From the IMG/VR virus record IMGVR_UViG_3300028840_002249, positions 1 through 22,546 of that record: a stretch of DNA of 22,546 nt. One strand, written 5' to 3'. The translations under genes and the position numbers were made by a program. The notes under the pieces are model-generated. The model was given only the letters and a program-made list of their open reading frames with translations. It was not told the DNA's origin and did no database searches. Below are positions 620-20,071 of this stretch, piece after piece. Source of the stretch: a virus. Each line of letters opens with the position of its first letter. Position 1 is the stretch's first letter.

Positions 620-2389
620 ATGAGAGGTAATCCATTCTATGTAGATCCAGGCGGAAACCTTCTTCCAGGGCTGCAAGCTCTTCAACGGGGTATGCTTATT
701 GGTGATAAAAAACAAGCAATAGAGGATGCAGAGGCAAAAAAGAAGAAAGCTGCTGCAGCTGCTATTGCAGCATACAAAACCAATGACCCAGACATAATCG
801 CAGAAACTATCCTCAAGAACCCAGAGATAGGTGAAACTCTTGGTGAGTTATATGATAAACGCCGTGATTATGCTAAAGAAGATTACGCCTCTTCTTTGGA
901 ATCACTATTAACAGAAATTGAAACCACTGGTACTTTAAAAGAGGAAGAAACGCCACCACCGGGTGCAGATGGGATTATTGAAGAAGACCTTCCTCCAGAT
1001 GTAGTTCCACCTCCGACTGCTCCTGGAGGCCTCCAAGGCATCGCTGGGGGCACCCCTCCCCCAGTTGCGGCATCTGCACCCGGTGGAAAACCAACTACTA
1101 AAACTGATATTGTAAAAAGTGTTTTTAGGAAAAACCCTGAAGCTGGCAAAAAGATGATTGAGTATGAGTTTGCCAAAAATGATCCTGACCGATATAAAGC
1201 TTGGAAAGAAGTTTACCGTGGTGATTCTAAAGGAACCAAAAGTTCCATTAAGAAAATGATCGATGAACGCCAAGCTCTTTTAGACCAAGGATTAAAACCT
1301 GATGATCCAAAAGTCAAAGCTTATGATAGAAAACTTTGGCCTGAAAATGAAGGAGCTCCTAGTAACTTAAAAAAGATGATTGATGAAAGAGCTACTTTTT
1401 TAGAAAATGGAGCTGATCCAAATAGCGATATTATCAAAGGCTATAACAATCGTATTTTGGGTGAGGCTGCTGATAAAGTTTATAGTCCTAGTCCATTAAA
1501 GAAACTCATTCAAGAACGCCAACAGTATATTAAAGATGGCATGAAGCTCGATGACCCCATAATTAAAGCTTATGACAATAAAATTGCTGGTATCGATATT
1601 GATATTGAAGAACTTTCACAAGAAGAAATTGATATGTGGGGTGCTTGGATAAATGCAACAGGAAAAATGCCTTCTGTTGGTCGCGGTAAACAAGCCACTA
1701 AAATTAGGGCAGCTATTCTTAAAAGTGCTGCTCGACAAGCTATTGGCGGAACAGGTATTGGTGATCCAAAGAAAACACCATTAAAAGCAGCTATGGAAGT
1801 TGTTGGGAAACAAGCCGATACAAAAGCAATTGGTGTAGCTCTTGGACAACTTGAGAAACAAACAGCCATGATGTCTAGTTTTGTTACCAATATGGATAAG
1901 CAAGTTGTCAGATTTAATGAAATAGCAAGAGAGCTTGACCAAGGTGGTATTAGAATTCTTAATGTTCCTCGTAGACTGTGGAGGAGCAAAATTATGGGTC
2001 ATCCATTACAAGCAAAATATGACATGTATCTCACAGAAATTGAGTCTGAAATTGGTAAACTTGCTACAGGTTCAGCTGCATCAGTTGCTGAACTTTCAAC
2101 TGGTGCACAAGAAAGATGGGATAAAATCCATGATAAAAATCTAAGCGCTGAAGATATTATCTCTTTAATTAATGAGACATCTCATGCAGCTAAAATGCGA
2201 ATGAGAAGTGTGGAAGACACATTAGAAGCAACTCGCAAAAGAATGCGAGATAGAAGATATAAGAAAACTCAAGTAACAGAACCTGGTGGAAAACTCCCAG
2301 TTGTTGGATCAAAAGAAGAATACGATAAACTTGATTCAGGTGATTTTTATATTAATAAAAAAACTGGAAAGAAAACGAGGAAACCATAA
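620..2389 (+). CDS. Virion-associated protein with three 40-residue repeats, 589 aa
   Basis: No enzyme family was recognised. The start is supported by AGGAG about 9 bases upstream. Residues about 30-50 are a Lys/Ala-rich helical stretch. Residues about 110-160 are a Pro/Gly-rich acidic linker that probably stays unfolded. From residue 208 three units of about 40 residues follow (at 208, 248 and 291), each beginning S-x-[IL]-KK-[ML]-I-[DQ]-ER and ending in a D-x-K-A-Y-D-x-K type segment. The C-terminal half is Lys/Arg/Glu-rich and predicted helical, with a basic end. It is joined to the next gene by a TAATG overlap, so the two are probably translated together. By position between the S74 gene and the transglycosylase protein it may be an internal (ejection) protein analogous in place to T7 gp15; this rests on position only. 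Confidence 0.72.
   Translation: MRGNPFYVDPGGNLLPGLQALQRGMLIGDKKQAIEDAEAKKKKAAAAAIAAYKTNDPDIIAETILKNPEIGETLGELYDKRRDYAKEDYASSLESLLTEIETTGTLKEEETPPPGADGIIEEDLPPDVVPPPTAPGGLQGIAGGTPPPVAASAPGGKPTTKTDIVKSVFRKNPEAGKKMIEYEFAKNDPDRYKAWKEVYRGDSKGTKSSIKKMIDERQALLDQGLKPDDPKVKAYDRKLWPENEGAPSNLKKMIDERATFLENGADPNSDIIKGYNNRILGEAADKVYSPSPLKKLIQERQQYIKDGMKLDDPIIKAYDNKIAGIDIDIEELSQEEIDMWGAWINATGKMPSVGRGKQATKIRAAILKSAARQAIGGTGIGDPKKTPLKAAMEVVGKQADTKAIGVALGQLEKQTAMMSSFVTNMDKQVVRFNEIARELDQGGIRILNVPRRLWRSKIMGHPLQAKYDMYLTEIESEIGKLATGSAASVAELSTGAQERWDKIHDKNLSAEDIISLINETSHAAKMRMRSVEDTLEATRKRMRDRRYKKTQVTEPGGKLPVVGSKEEYDKLDSGDFYINKKTGKKTRKP
1241..1594 (+). repeat. Three in-frame protein repeats of about 40 residues
   Basis: Three degenerate direct repeats begin at 1241, 1361 and 1490, encoding SSIKKMIDERQALL, SNLKKMIDERATFL and SPLKKLIQERQQYI. 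Each is followed by a Gly/Asp-Pro turn and a K-[AG]-Y-[DN]-x-[KR]-[LI] segment. The similarity is clear at protein level but has decayed at DNA level, so the duplication is old and maintained by selection on the protein. Confidence 0.8.
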
Positions 2390-11428: not shown

Positions 11429-13333
11429 TTACATTTTTCTGTAGCGTTTTTCAATTACACCTTCAGTCTTCAAAGGTAAGCCAGCTGCCCATTCAGGCAT
11501 ATTACACAAATGAATATTAACACCATTTAATGTGGTTTCATCACAGCGTTCATCCACCTCAAGGATAACTTCATCATGAACGGAACCTATAATTTTAAAG
11601 CCTGCATAGTCTAGATTAAGTTTTCCTTCAGCTATAATATCTCTTGACAGCGCTTGGATAATGTTTTCAACGAATCGGCCAGGGATGATTTTTAATCGTT
11701 GCCACTTTTTAGTATATGGGTTGATGCCCATTGCAGTTACTTCAGGTCCATAGTCACCTTCCCTAATCTCAGGTTTATTGTAATATAAATTACGACCTGA
11801 AGGTATAGTTAACTGTAACCATGGAGTTTTATTACGGTCACGTATCAACTTAAATTGACACTTAGGTACTTCAAAAGGGATACCTGGATTTGTGATAGCA
11901 TTAATTGCTGCAGTTCTGCATTGATACCAAAAAGAAACAACGAGGCTATATCTCGTTCTCCAGGCGTTTACACCCTCTTGAGCAACTGATTCAGAAACAG
12001 GAGTTCCATAGCCTTCCATATATTTCATAAATCCTCGCCAACCTAGGCCATAACCGCAGCCAAGAACGAGTTGTTTACCCATGTATCTTTCTTGATCTGT
12101 AATATTATCATAAGGTTTCTTGAGAAGAAAAGCTGCCATGTCTTTATACTGATCAAGGCCTTTACGAAATAACTCAAGAGTCTTATGATCATCAACTGTC
12201 CAAGCTAATCCACGATTCTCAATACCTGTATAGTCAACGTAGCAGAGTTTCTTTCCCTTTGGTGCACAAATCATTCCTCGTATGATAGACTTAGCAGCAT
12301 TGATAGGATCATCTTCAATAATCTCATAGTTCATGAATTGATCTATAATTGGCTGTGCATCGGTTACTTTAGATCTAGGCAGGTTATGTAGCTGAAAATC
12401 TAAACCACCCCATCTACCTGTTGATGCAGCATAATATCTCAAGTTATCATAAATACGTTTGTCATGACACCTGTCTATCAGTTTGAGGTATTTAGCTGTA
12501 GAAGACCTTCCCAATTCTTGGCGAAGCTGAAGCACAGTTCTTTGTTTTTCAGTAAGATCAACACGGTTTAATAGTTTCTCAACAGTAGCTGCTTGAAGAT
12601 TGGGAACAACCATTCCTTGATTGCGAAGCCACTCAACTATTCGTTTATTTTGAGTGGCCTTAGTTACTTTATTATCTGTGAGACTTGGAAGCAATTCATT
12701 CATGTCTTCTTTGTAAATTTCTGTTAGCCTATAGATTACTTTAGCAGCGTCAATATCTATAGGCAAACCGTTGTCATTTATTTTAACGGTTAATTCCCAG
12801 ATCTTTTGCTCTTTATCTGAAAGCTTAGATGCGGGTAGAGCATTCAACAGCTCATGCATAGAATTAACATCATCTTTACAGTACTGATAGAATTCCATAA
12901 GATCGACATGAGCATATTCAAACGGTGGAGTGCAAATCTTTTTAATGAGGGCTTTACCACGAGGATTTTTCTTGAGTTTTAAATCAAGATCATCACCTGC
13001 AGCAGCAAGTGATTGGTGATAAGTAAAACGACCACAAATAGCCATGACATCTATCCAAAAAGAATGGTGTATTCGTGGGAAATCATATTTAGGGCCAAGA
13101 GTATTCCATACAGCTATATCAAATTGTGCATTATGAGCATAAAATTTATGTATAGAATAATCAGTTACAAAGTCAGGAAGTGGATCACCTGGTTTCCACA
13201 ATTCTGTAGGTTGATCATCAATTTTATATGCCATACAAATAATATCTGCTTCTCTACCTGCAAGATATTTTTTGCGGCCATGCTTTATTAGATCAACTTC
13301 AGATCTAGTTTCAAAATCTATGCCAATTAACAT
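11429..13333 (-). CDS. Family A DNA polymerase with 3'-5' exonuclease, 634 aa
   Basis: This is the replicative polymerase. The exonuclease domain has IGIDFETRS (Asp6, Glu8), AHNAQFD (Asp72) and YCKDD (Tyr151, Asp155). The polymerase domain has TGRWGG, motif A CYVDYTGIENRGLAW (Asp367; DYTGIENR instead of the usual DYSQIELR), motif B GKQLVLGCGYGLGWRGF, and motif C GSVHDEVILEV. There is no 5'-3' exonuclease domain, as is usual for phage enzymes. The ATG at 13333 is chosen because AGGAGG lies 4 bases upstream and MLIGIDFE begins directly at the exonuclease domain; the reading frame upstream to 13351 has no support. The start overlaps the preceding stop as TAATG, so translation is probably coupled. 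The call is very secure. Confidence 0.96.
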   Translation of the reverse strand: MLIGIDFETRSEVDLIKHGRKKYLAGREADIICMAYKIDDQPTELWKPGDPLPDFVTDYSIHKFYAHNAQFDIAVWNTLGPKYDFPRIHHSFWIDVMAICGRFTYHQSLAAAGDDLDLKLKKNPRGKALIKKICTPPFEYAHVDLMEFYQYCKDDVNSMHELLNALPASKLSDKEQKIWELTVKINDNGLPIDIDAAKVIYRLTEIYKEDMNELLPSLTDNKVTKATQNKRIVEWLRNQGMVVPNLQAATVEKLLNRVDLTEKQRTVLQLRQELGRSSTAKYLKLIDRCHDKRIYDNLRYYAASTGRWGGLDFQLHNLPRSKVTDAQPIIDQFMNYEIIEDDPINAAKSIIRGMICAPKGKKLCYVDYTGIENRGLAWTVDDHKTLELFRKGLDQYKDMAAFLLKKPYDNITDQERYMGKQLVLGCGYGLGWRGFMKYMEGYGTPVSESVAQEGVNAWRTRYSLVVSFWYQCRTAAINAITNPGIPFEVPKCQFKLIRDRNKTPWLQLTIPSGRNLYYNKPEIREGDYGPEVTAMGINPYTKKWQRLKIIPGRFVENIIQALSRDIIAEGKLNLDYAGFKIIGSVHDEVILEVDERCDETTLNGVNIHLCNMPEWAAGLPLKTEGVIEKRYRKM

Positions 13334-13749
13334 TAGACCTCCTTCCAGCATTCACTGCACATAACACGTTGTGTAACTGGAATATGCATAGCATAGTTAT
13401 TGCCAAGCATAGGTTGGTCACACAAAGTTTTAATGGCATTTTTATCTGCTAAATGCCATTGCCCTAATCTTTTAACCCAGTCAATTTTATTTGATATTTT
13501 AAACACCCAATTGACTAAGTCTTCAGCATTTCCATAATGCGTTTTTCCGTTTAATACCCACCTATTTGTACTAGGATAGAAAGCAATGGTACCAAAAGAA
13601 ACTTTAAAATTAAGTTGATAGCCGGCATTATAAACTTCGTAGTCGGCTTCTATTTTATTCAGATATCGCATGTTAGATTCTAGCCTAGATTCTCTTTCAT
13701 CTTTGGCCATTTCTTTAAGAAAACGGAAATCATCACCCATATCACCCAT
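13333..13749 (-). CDS. Hypothetical protein upstream of the polymerase, 138 aa
   Basis: No family was recognised. The N-terminal 35 residues are charged and helical (FRFLKEMAKDERESRLESNMRYL). The middle contains beta-like segments (YQLNFKVSFGTIAFYPSTNRWVLNGKTHYGNAEDLVNWVF). There are two Cys near the end (CSEC). AGGAGGT is 6 bases before the ATG. The gene is coupled to the DNA polymerase by TAATG, suggesting a replication role, and it is the first gene after the structured RNA at 13771-13908, whose last hairpin ends just before its ribosome binding site. Its expression may therefore depend on that RNA. Confidence 0.7.
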   Translation of the reverse strand: MGDMGDDFRFLKEMAKDERESRLESNMRYLNKIEADYEVYNAGYQLNFKVSFGTIAFYPSTNRWVLNGKTHYGNAEDLVNWVFKISNKIDWVKRLGQWHLADKNAIKTLCDQPMLGNNYAMHIPVTQRVMCSECWKEV

Positions 13750-13770
13750 GATTTTACCTCCTTATGATGA

Positions 13771-13908
13771 GAGGGTTGGCACCCTGGCATACGGTTCAGT
13801 TTAAGGTGCCAACCCTCCGGCTCCCCCATTGGAGCCTATTGCGGATTCGTGGCTACGGTCCTCTGCCGGCACATACCGAGCGTGACATTCCCCGACAGTG
13901 AATCCACA
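13771..13908 (-). ncRNA. Candidate structured RNA in the ssDNA-binding/polymerase intergenic gap
   Basis: Nearly the whole 138-base gap is self-complementary. Stem 1 pairs 13900-13908 with 13840-13848 (9 bp). Inside it stem 2 pairs 13892-13898 with 13863-13869 (7 bp), and 13875-13878 can pair with 13856-13859, crossing stem 2 as a pseudoknot. Next is a 6-bp hairpin, GGCTCC/GGAGCC (13819-13824 with 13831-13836). Last is a perfect 13-bp hairpin (13771-13783 with 13805-13817, loop 21). In stems 1 and 2 the only non-Watson-Crick pairs are G-U on the minus strand but A-C on the plus strand, which points to an RNA made in the direction of the operon. The block is much richer in G and C than its surroundings. 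I could not match it to a known riboswitch or ribozyme. Confidence 0.6.
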
Positions 13909-13920
13909 AATTCTGTAGGT

Positions 13921-14505
13921 TTACTCCAAGTCACCGTCAGTTGCGGGATCAGCTGCAGCCACATTATCAACAGCTTCATCTGTATATGCGCTGAATGCGT
14001 CCTCAGCTTTCTGACGACCATCAAGACGTTCACCTTCTTTAACCATCAAAAGGTTATTCAGGCCACATCCGACGCCACGATTACCTGCTTGGTTATACGG
14101 GAAGAAGTTAACATCTGCTCTTCCGTAACAACCTGAGTAGAAATCGTCGGGATCAAAGATTGGGACGGGTGAGGAGTCTTTTTGAGCTTTGACAACGCCC
14201 GGCTTGTTCTTCGATGTAGCATTGATGAAAAAACACCCTTTGTATTCAGGGCCTCGGTTACCTTGGTCAAATTCTTCATCACCGTCACGGATGGGAAGCC
14301 TGAGACCTTTCACTTGAGCCTGGGTGAACTTGTTGTTTTCAATGCCTTTTTGAACAGCATCATTAATGGCGGACTGTAGAGCTTTGATACCTTCCTTGTC
14401 CTCTTTTGAAACTAACATGGAAACAGAGTATTTGAGATCTCCAGAAGGTGTGGGTTTGGGTTCGAAACAATTGAGATATGAAAATCTTACAAGAGTTGTA
14501 ATCAT
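13921..14505 (-). CDS. DUF2815 family ssDNA-binding-type protein, 194 aa
   Basis: This matches the DUF2815 family found in phage replication modules and regarded as OB-fold single-strand DNA-binding-like. Typical segments are TTLVRFSYLNCFEPK, GDLKYSVSMLVSKED, LPIRDGDEEF, PEYKGCFFINATSKNKPGVV, DFYSGCYGRADVNFFPYNQAGNRGVGCGLNNLLMV. The tail (about 165-194) is acidic and ends DGDLE. Acidic tails on single-strand binding proteins commonly dock partner proteins. AGGAGG lies 6 bases before the ATG. Codons are more G/C-ending than in most neighbours, like the acidic 171-residue protein, consistent with high expression. It directly precedes the structured RNA. Family call is firm; the exact role is inferred from the family. 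Confidence 0.88.
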   Translation of the reverse strand: MITTLVRFSYLNCFEPKPTPSGDLKYSVSMLVSKEDKEGIKALQSAINDAVQKGIENNKFTQAQVKGLRLPIRDGDEEFDQGNRGPEYKGCFFINATSKNKPGVVKAQKDSSPVPIFDPDDFYSGCYGRADVNFFPYNQAGNRGVGCGLNNLLMVKEGERLDGRQKAEDAFSAYTDEAVDNVAAADPATDGDLE

Positions 14506-15481: not shown

Positions 15482-16145
15482 CGATACACTCTTCAGCTTT
15501 CATTTTACCTTGGGTACAACCACCAAGAGTTTCACAGTCAGGACCGACCAAAGTAAAAAGCTCAGGCCACCATAGTAAACAGATGTGTCGCATTTTCTGA
15601 GCAAAATAATGCATCTCTGGTACATTACGTCTACAAAGTCTTTGGTTGAAAAAGTTAATCAATGAACGAGCATTAACTGTCCAAAGCAAATTCACGGCTT
15701 TTGCATTTGGAAGAACTTGCCGAGCTTCTTCCTTTGGAATACCAATACTAATCAAGTATGAATACATTTCATCAGCTTGATCTATAAATTCTTTGACAGC
15801 ATCCATTTCAAGCATGTGAGAATCAAGGACATTTGGAAATTTATTGTATGTGGTATAGTGTTGGCTTGCAGATGTGAATGATCCCATGCGATGGCGAGTT
15901 ATTTGTGCCAAAAAAGATCTGGAAACATTTTCAATTAGAACAGTGATGAAGCAATGTTCTAATGGTGATGTATGATTTGCATTAAACAGGAATTCAGTTA
16001 ATCTAACTGCAGCATTTTGGCTGACTGATTTACTCAATTCCTGTTTTTGTGTGAGATTGCAAGCTAATGATACAACCTCACGAGGATTTTTTGTTTCCTG
16101 GATTATTTTAATTTTTAATGCTGAATACGGTTTTAATTCACTCAT
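15453..16145 (-). CDS. thyX: Flavin-dependent thymidylate synthase ThyX, 230 aa
   Basis: This is a ThyX-family enzyme, which makes dTMP from dUMP using FAD, NADPH and methylenetetrahydrofolate. SPLEH (about 60-64) and RHRMGSFTSASQHY (84-97) are the flavin and nucleotide-binding signatures. The second keeps the RHR-x7-S core (Ser94) but has His96 where the family normally has the Arg of S-x-R-Y, and Thr-Ser in place of the frequent Asn-Glu. LPNAKAVNLLWTVNARSLINFFNQRL and a final WPELF complete the fold. The start is at 16145, where GGAGGGGG lies about 7 bases upstream; the longer frame is inside the previous gene. It overlaps Nmad1 by 8 bases. It is most likely a true dTMP synthase, with an altered pyrimidine product a possibility. 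Confidence 0.92.
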   Translation of the reverse strand: MSELKPYSALKIKIIQETKNPREVVSLACNLTQKQELSKSVSQNAAVRLTEFLFNANHTSPLEHCFITVLIENVSRSFLAQITRHRMGSFTSASQHYTTYNKFPNVLDSHMLEMDAVKEFIDQADEMYSYLISIGIPKEEARQVLPNAKAVNLLWTVNARSLINFFNQRLCRRNVPEMHYFAQKMRHICLLWWPELFTLVGPDCETLGGCTQGKMKAEECIDANVPDFRR

Positions 16146-16422: not shown

Positions 16423-16457
16423 ATAAAAAGAAAAGGCTACGCCGTAGCGTAGCCTTT
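16423..16457 (-). terminator. Rho-independent terminator after the acidic protein gene
   Basis: A perfect 11-bp stem, AAAGGCTACGC with GCGTAGCCTTT (16432-16442 and 16447-16457), has a 4-base loop and is followed on the minus strand by TTTTCTTTTT. It lies 24 bases past the stop of the 171-residue gene and just before the Nmad1 gene, so downstream genes need read-through or another signal. Confidence 0.9.
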
Positions 16458-17061: not shown

Positions 17062-17092
17062 ATAATAGCATAGTTTATGCCAAAAGTAAACG
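17062..17092 (-). promoter_or_regulatory. Sigma-70-type promoter of the acidic protein gene
   Basis: On the minus strand -35 TTTACT (17085-17090), a 17-base spacer and -10 TATTAT (17062-17067) precede the 171-residue gene by about 65 bases. The spacer holds an operator-like inverted repeat, GCATA-x3-TATGC (17068-17080). The block CGTTTACTTTTGG around the -35 is identical in the promoter at 21333-21363. Confidence 0.75.
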
Positions 17093-18862: not shown

Positions 18863-18880
18863 TTTACTGCCTCCTTTGGT

Positions 18881-18954
18881 TTAATTAATAAGCGTCACAT
18901 CCCAACCAGGCTTCTGCATTACCATGATGTTGGGATGTGAGGTTTATTAATTAA
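18881..18954 (-). other. Long two-part intercistronic hairpin spanning stop codon to ribosome site
   Basis: An 11-bp outer stem (18881-18891 with 18944-18954) and a 12-bp inner stem (18895-18906 with 18929-18940) are separated by a 3x3 internal loop and closed by a 22-base loop. The outer arm contains the stop codon of the 68-residue gene, and the other arm ends just before the AGGAGG of the 38-residue gene. There is no T-run, so it is not a standard terminator. The shape resembles phage RNase III processing sites. Confidence 0.75.
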
Positions 18955-19157
18955 TCCATATTCTCTCCTTTCTTTGAGTTAACCGCATTCTCGCCTGCAA
19001 AAATAAAGCTTGCCCAGGTGAATTTATCACATTTGCAATCATTTATTTTACAGGCGCCGTGGCCGACGGCCAGACCATTAAGTAAATCCAAATGATCAGT
19101 TTTTTCATGACCACAATCACATAATTCGCCGATGATTGTTTCGAAAGATTCTGCCAC
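18951..19157 (-). CDS. Small Cys/His-rich zinc-binding-type protein, GTG start, 68 aa
   Basis: LCDCGHEKTDH (Cys13, Cys15, His17, His22) and GHGACKINDCKCDKFTW (His33, Cys36, Cys41, Cys43) look like a small zinc-binding fold of a type widespread in phages and actinobacteria, ending in a C-x-C-x-x-F signature. The function is not known to me. The start is GTG, supported by AGGAGG 4 bases upstream and the absence of a better ATG. The stop codon lies inside the outer arm of the 18881-18954 hairpin, so the end of this gene and the start of the next would be held together in the mRNA. Confidence 0.8.
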   Translation of the reverse strand: MAESFETIIGELCDCGHEKTDHLDLLNGLAVGHGACKINDCKCDKFTWASFIFAGENAVNSKKGENMD

Positions 19158-19949: not shown

Positions 19950-20071
19950 TGTTAATCCGTAATGATAATCCTTTGGTCAGTCTCTCACCATTAAGCCGGG
20001 ACTGATATTAACGCCACTTTCAGGGGCAATGTTCTTACCTGTAGGCAAAGGATTATCATAGCTGATTAACA
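19950..20071 (-). other. Large branched intercistronic RNA hairpin
   Basis: An 8-bp outer stem (19950-19957 with 20064-20071) and a 14-bp inner stem (19962-19975 with 20046-20059) flank a 4x4 internal loop. The 70-base apical region can form at least one further hairpin (19977-19982 with 20000-20005) and a short CAGG/CCTG pair (20021-20024 with 20038-20041), giving a branched structure. The outer arm contains the stop codon of the 83-residue gene. It has no T-run. It was compared by eye with tRNA and common riboswitches with no match. Confidence 0.7.

Follow-up and report, generated by a model that had tools for sequence, protein, structure and literature searches.

A stem-loop past the stop codon of phage DUF2815-type SSB genes as a candidate message-stabilising element

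Introduction

What does the structured gap that follows the single-stranded DNA-binding protein (SSB) gene in IMG/VR virus record IMGVR_UViG_3300028840_002249 do, and do related phages carry it as well? The window, that is, the whole stretch of DNA analysed here, comprises 22,546 nucleotides of this record. A previous reading of the letters alone (the sequence-only reading) had pointed to a G+C-rich element in an AT-rich genome, and the composition agrees with this: G+C is 0.594 at 13771–13908 against 0.381 for the window.

Structure and gene neighbourhood of the gap

The SSB gene (13921–14505, minus strand) belongs to the DUF2815/Enc34 ssDNA-binding family (Pfam PF10991, Enc34_ssDNA-bd, E 5e-52), and the element follows its 3′ end. 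The non-coding gap is real, as had been proposed, but by the ORF limits it measures 171 nt (13750–13920, minus strand) rather than 138. The SSB gene was also placed correctly on one side of it; the polymerase gene is not directly next on the other, where a 138-aa ORF with an ATG start (13333–13749, minus strand) intervenes. This ORF matched PHROG 27571 (unknown function; E 5.5e-6) and gave no match in a Pfam search. It is followed by the family A DNA polymerase gene (11429–13351, minus strand; PF00476, E 1.5e-20). The Shine-Dalgarno sequence of the 138-aa ORF, AAGGAGG, was read from the sequence at 13757–13763 (minus strand).

Our folding analysis of 13765–13915 on the minus strand gave a minimum free energy (MFE) of −65.8 kcal/mol, compared with −49.8 ± 3.8 kcal/mol for dinucleotide shuffles (z −4.2), and none of 200 shuffles was as stable; the gap thus passed the comparison with shuffled sequence that the sequence-only reading had suggested. 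All the stems it had named, and the 4-bp pseudoknot pairing, were found by sequence on the minus strand. Stem 1 pairs 13900–13909 with 13839–13848 (10 bp, one G-U) and stem 2 pairs 13892–13898 with 13863–13869 (7 bp, one G-U), so that the single non-Watson-Crick pair of each stem is indeed G-U in the minus-strand RNA. A possible pseudoknot of 4 bp joins 13875–13878 to 13856–13859. These three pairings make up module 1 (13839–13909), which exists in the sequence and is unsupported. Hairpin 3, GGCUCC-AAUGGG-GGAGCC (13819–13836), has a perfect 6-bp stem (13831–13836 with 13819–13824). Hairpin 4 (13771–13817) has a perfect 13-bp stem (13805–13817 with 13771–13783) and ends 7 nt before the AAGGAGG, close to the ribosome site as described.

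The excess stability sits in the 3′ half, with z −5.5 for hairpin 4 and z −3.2 for hairpin 3. Stems 1 and 2 reached z −1.5, module 1 gave z −0.6 (MFE p 0.26) if measured from the stop codon, and its best inverted repeat had p 0.03. A scan of 140-nt pieces ranked the fold energy of the gap as the second most negative in the window, behind the coding region 946–1090; z-scores below that of the gap were found at other window sites, several of them within the same operon. The same operon has further structured gaps besides this one.

Near relatives and covariation

IMG/VR contains about 15 relatives whose SSB is 70–84% identical to that of the window, and the closest one with shared gap sequence is contig L004 (82% SSB identity). 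Hairpin 3 is letter-identical in L004. Hairpin 4 differs by three double compensatory pair changes and one one-sided change, with no broken pair, around a common loop, AAACUGAAC; the compensation count stood at 59/500 against the shuffle control, which is a weak control because it uses two sequences only. Module 1, with stems 1 and 2 and the pseudoknot, is entirely absent from the L004 gap and is known from a single sequence. Exact searches of IMG/VR found no match to its core, and found hairpin 3 in the L004 contig only. Compensatory changes, which the sequence-only reading had proposed to look for, were seen in hairpin 4 and not in stems 1 and 2, and its single integrated fold of 138 nt is not supported, since module 1 is missing from L004 and taken alone is no more stable than shuffles. 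Comparative support is limited to the 3′ half, that is, to hairpins 3 and 4. The gap here consists of two supported hairpins and one unsupported module.

Most other near relatives have a simple strong hairpin at this position, and its letters are mostly unrelated; examples are GAGGGACCC-CTCG-GGGTCCCTC, AAAGGGGCACCA-CAATA-TGGTGCCCCTTT and TGGGGCTC-TTCG-GAGCCCCA. The end of the hairpin frequently lies only a few bases 5′ of the next Shine-Dalgarno sequence. Two more distant relatives, L031 and L032 (58–60% SSB identity), have in common a 154–157-nt gap with five helices, in which none of 36 pairs is broken and 10 are kept by double changes, a result equalled by 1 of 500 column shuffles. The proposal of an operon-strand RNA element is supported, and the compensatory changes of hairpin 4 and these covarying multi-helix gaps are signs of selection on it. 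A regulatory leader, a ribozyme or a sequence-specific operator for the DUF2815 protein, all of which had been suggested, is disfavoured, because conserved letters would be expected of them while the relatives of 71–84% protein identity have a hairpin and few share its sequence; the letters drift freely.

In L205, about 35 nt past the SSB stop (1277–1318, coordinates approximate), an H-type pseudoknot has two 8-bp stems, TTCATCAG/CTGATGAG and AGACTAGG/CCTAGTCT, within a 12-bp outer stem. Pseudoknots were weakly enriched overall: 15.7% of SSB junctions had one that reached p ≤ 0.02, compared with 7.2% among control gaps. Striking as the L205 example is, we did not retain the pseudoknot as a common architecture, given this weak overall enrichment.

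SSB junctions in a wider set of phages

The comparison was extended to relatives from IMG/VR and GTDB genomes. Genes were called with a simple script, and the controls were built on the same calls; thresholds were chosen during exploration, so the p-values given are descriptive. A strong inverted repeat, in some cases running on into the 5′ part of the following gene, was found at 84 of 140 distinct post-SSB junctions, with mostly unrelated letters, and 56 were without one. Post-SSB gaps are longer (median 66 nt, compared with 8 nt for the remaining same-strand junctions on those contigs) and more stably folded (mean z −2.14 versus −0.96 at the other same-strand junctions, p 8e-8). Where an ORF lies between SSB and polymerase, z below −2 was found after SSB in 15 of 56 cases and before polymerase in 6 of 56. 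The position thus tracks the 3′ end of SSB more than the polymerase start, which favours a 3′ element over a leader of the polymerase gene.

Taking one junction per 80%-identity cluster, 26 helix mismatches read as G-U on the operon strand and one as A-C, and two other thresholds gave 21:3 and 31:3. This asymmetry indicates that the element is operon-strand RNA. It marks RNA in general rather than SSB junctions in particular, because the control hairpins lean likewise (20:4). The composition of the arms gave a different picture: the 5′ arm had more G than C in 37 clusters and the reverse held in 7 (80% identity), while the control-gap hairpins showed no polarity (24:25). At broader 60% clusters the ratio was 12:1, and there was no bias among the five clusters at 50%. 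The G-rich 5′ arm is a feature special to SSB junctions.

Cultured phages also carry the hairpin in the gap. Brevibacillus phage Emery has a plain version, GGGGGAGAC-GAAA-GTTTCCCC, and others were found in Enterococcus phage phiFL4A, Corynebacterium phage Stiles and Streptococcus phage Javan630.

Structure within polymerase codons

Many phages have no gap, the polymerase gene starting directly at the end of the SSB gene. In these the structure was found in the first 32 codons of the polymerase gene, counted from the DIET-type exonuclease motif: their mean z against synonymous-codon shuffles was −1.83, while later parts of the gene gave −0.6 to +0.1 (contrast p 4e-10). Where the gap is longer, these codons had z of −0.6 to −0.7 (contrast p 1e-5). 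By cluster, the coding-hairpin contrast had p 4e-4 at 80% identity and was marginal at 65% (p 0.05). Cultured examples are Clostridioides phage phiCDKH02 and Acutalibacter phage Fontainebleau.

Known RNA classes

No match to Rfam 15 was found at gathering score in the window or at the junctions scanned in 53 loci of relatives, and no known ribozyme class appeared in the window gap at E up to 5, so the statement that no known class fits could be upheld. The DUF2815 RNA (RF03084) is named after the same gene family and likewise has a hairpin, then a Shine-Dalgarno sequence and AUG. Our search with this model gave 19 bits (E 0.35) at 13747–13827 on the minus strand, which is below the gathering cut-off of 41.2 bits. 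RF03084 had no match at the relatives' junctions scanned, and a scan of about 600 genomes yielded one sub-threshold match, whose 3-kb locus is without a DUF2815 gene. No tRNA or tmRNA was found, and a DNA similarity search of named phages gave no match. The junction structure is not described in the literature searched, most subscription journals lying outside the scope of that search.

Discussion

Phages generally make SSB in excess over polymerase. On the patterns above, we give an even chance to the reading that the element is an intra-operon 3′ stem-loop which would stabilise the SSB message by selective RNA processing and stabilisation. The long transcript from SSB to polymerase would be cleaved or trimmed, and the helix would halt 3′-to-5′ exonucleases. 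A stable SSB message would remain while the downstream part (small ORF and polymerase) would decay faster, so that one transcript may yield much SSB and little polymerase. Such a hairpin would act through its helix and not its letters. This reading fits because the element has a fixed place and free letters, is read as RNA, mostly has no U-tail, and lies between a gene needed in bulk and one needed at a low level.

A comparable system has been reported in the cip-cel and other operons of Clostridium cellulolyticum. There, stem-loops at processing sites lie inside operons at the 3′ ends of genes with high transcription; 28 of 33 are without a U-run, and stem-loop energy correlates with transcript ratios (PMC4423207). 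The phage element is similar in being an intra-operon stem-loop 3′ of a presumed high-expression gene, mostly without a U-run, and the energies are alike (average −23.5 kcal/mol at the 3′ sites of C. cellulolyticum, PMC4423207; median −22.8 at SSB junctions). The window element is likewise stable, lies 3′ of a gene within an operon and is without a U-run, as is usual for stabilising stem-loops. Unlike those of C. cellulolyticum, the phage element is tied to one gene family, has a G-rich 5′ arm and can enter the codons of the next gene.

Several findings speak against the stabilising stem-loop. The G-rich 5′ arm is clear, though a 3′-protecting helix needs none; ribosomes would open a hairpin within translated polymerase codons; and 56 of the 140 junctions are without a strong repeat, while the operon has other intergenic hairpins. 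We consider it rather improbable that, in phages with DUF2815/gp2.5-type SSB, an RNA element fixed in position just past the SSB stop (in the gap or the first polymerase codons) and recognisable by a helix with a G-rich 5′ arm, with no conserved letters, would serve as a dedicated SSB/polymerase expression switch of a previously undescribed kind, possibly read by SSB itself.

A leaky terminator or pause hairpin (attenuator), at which some RNA polymerases would be released after SSB and fewer reach the polymerase gene, is unlikely, if the least so of the remaining alternatives. Some relatives do have a U-tail (L025, L036 and L037), and the operon contains a conserved, true terminator-like hairpin elsewhere (16432–16457). 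An intrinsic terminator is a G+C-rich hairpin directly followed by a T-run, but no T-run follows hairpin 4 in the window, where TCATCATAAGG comes next; the gap was not called in a terminator scan (whose loop limit was 8), and a U-tail was rarer in SSB hairpins (14 of 54, with 40 lacking it) than in control hairpins (22 of 56). In gapless phages, moreover, the structure lies in translated codons. We hold it to be somewhat less probable still that the hairpin and its flanks control initiation at the next gene, for example as a re-initiation insulator or through an anti-Shine-Dalgarno box past the SSB stop, which would pair with the next Shine-Dalgarno sequence and be opened by the terminating ribosome. 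The frequent ending of the hairpin just 5′ of that sequence agrees with such a device, and in predicted folds of near relatives CCUUU/UCCU-like boxes past the SSB stop pair with it. Suggestive as the box is in a few near relatives, it was rejected as a general feature, since box pairing overall was not above that of shuffled boxes (mean z −0.22, KS p 0.15); the element also trails SSB when the gene that follows is a different one.

That the SSB protein binds its own operon RNA is very unlikely. The site adjoins the SSB gene, L205 has its H-type pseudoknot and the window a weak 4-bp one, and there is a precedent in the T4 gene 32 mRNA, where a pseudoknot operator of conserved fold lies upstream of the SSB start next to an A+U-rich ribosome-binding site (PMC3014915). 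The resemblance is that an RNA structure adjoins a phage SSB gene, with a possible pseudoknot in a few members; unlike the T4 operator (PMC3014915), the present element is downstream of the gene and mostly a plain hairpin with free letters, the 4-bp pseudoknot is unsupported, and pseudoknots are only weakly enriched. None of these three alternatives (terminator, translational device, SSB-bound operator) plainly accounts for the G-rich 5′ arm. The perfect inverted repeats within a replication module might also suggest a DNA-level element, such as a replication origin, a cruciform or a single-strand hairpin. This is extremely unlikely and is disfavoured by the strand asymmetry, as operon-strand reading turns nearly all mismatches into G-U pairs (26:1) and also yields several UUCG tetraloops. 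Phage T4 has stable CUUCGG intercistronic hairpins between its genes. Several near relatives similarly have C(UUCG)G or UCCG loops; unlike the T4 hairpins, most members, including the window, are without a UUCG loop, and the element is tied to one gene.

The components are thus of a known kind, intra-operon mRNA hairpins, while the association with one gene, the arm polarity and the shift into coding sequence seem to be new. Recurrence of the element across many phages of many hosts, even moving into coding sequence, suggests that selection acts at the RNA level on the ratio of SSB to polymerase. Sequence or covariance searches miss elements of this sort, in which the letters are free to change.

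Other structures in the window and relatives

Our scan also revealed a 30-nt inverted repeat at 18877–18958 (minus strand; 90% complementary, 22-nt loop, core CACATCCCAAC...GTTGGGATGTG) between two small operon genes and just 5′ of a ribosome site; with z −5.6 it is a stronger outlier than the 13750–13920 gap. At 19962–20059 (minus strand), also between operon genes, a 14-bp perfect stem encloses a 70-nt structured interior (z −2.7). The terminator-like hairpin at 16432–16457 (minus strand), AAAGGCTACGC-TACG-GCGTAGCCTTT followed by TCTTTTT, lies mid-operon just 5′ of a ribosome site, and counterparts with the same A-tract/T-tail shape and a similar CTGGAGG context were found in L182, L183, L184, L185, L186, L187 and L190. 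Two structures are within genes. One is at 946–1090 (plus strand), in a Pro/Gly-rich stretch of a 589-aa ORF, with a 16-bp stem CCACCGGGTGCAGATG/CATCTGCACCCGGTGG and inner hairpins; no other site in the window has so negative a fold energy (z −6.2). The other is a strong inverted repeat, AAACAGGAATT...AATTCCTGTTT, at 15984–16046 (minus strand) in the thymidylate synthase (ThyX) gene (region z −6.6).

Promoter-like sites, TTTACTTTTGGYA...TAT(A/T)AT, repeatedly precede replication genes, at 17062–17090 (minus strand) of the window and in relatives. One such site lies within a CTTTCTTTGGTA/TACCAAAGAAAG inverted repeat in L186 (6443–6534) and L188 (6059–6150), and the repeat is a likely operator. 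The related IMG/VR phage contig L182 has a long tandem array of CACAATGTAGTGTAC-like units at 184–436. The close relative L102 (JAFCGI010000013.1) belongs to a metagenome bin that bears the title Candidatus Pacearchaeota archaeon; this assignment is doubtful, because the equally long IMG/VR contig L201 is filed as a virus.
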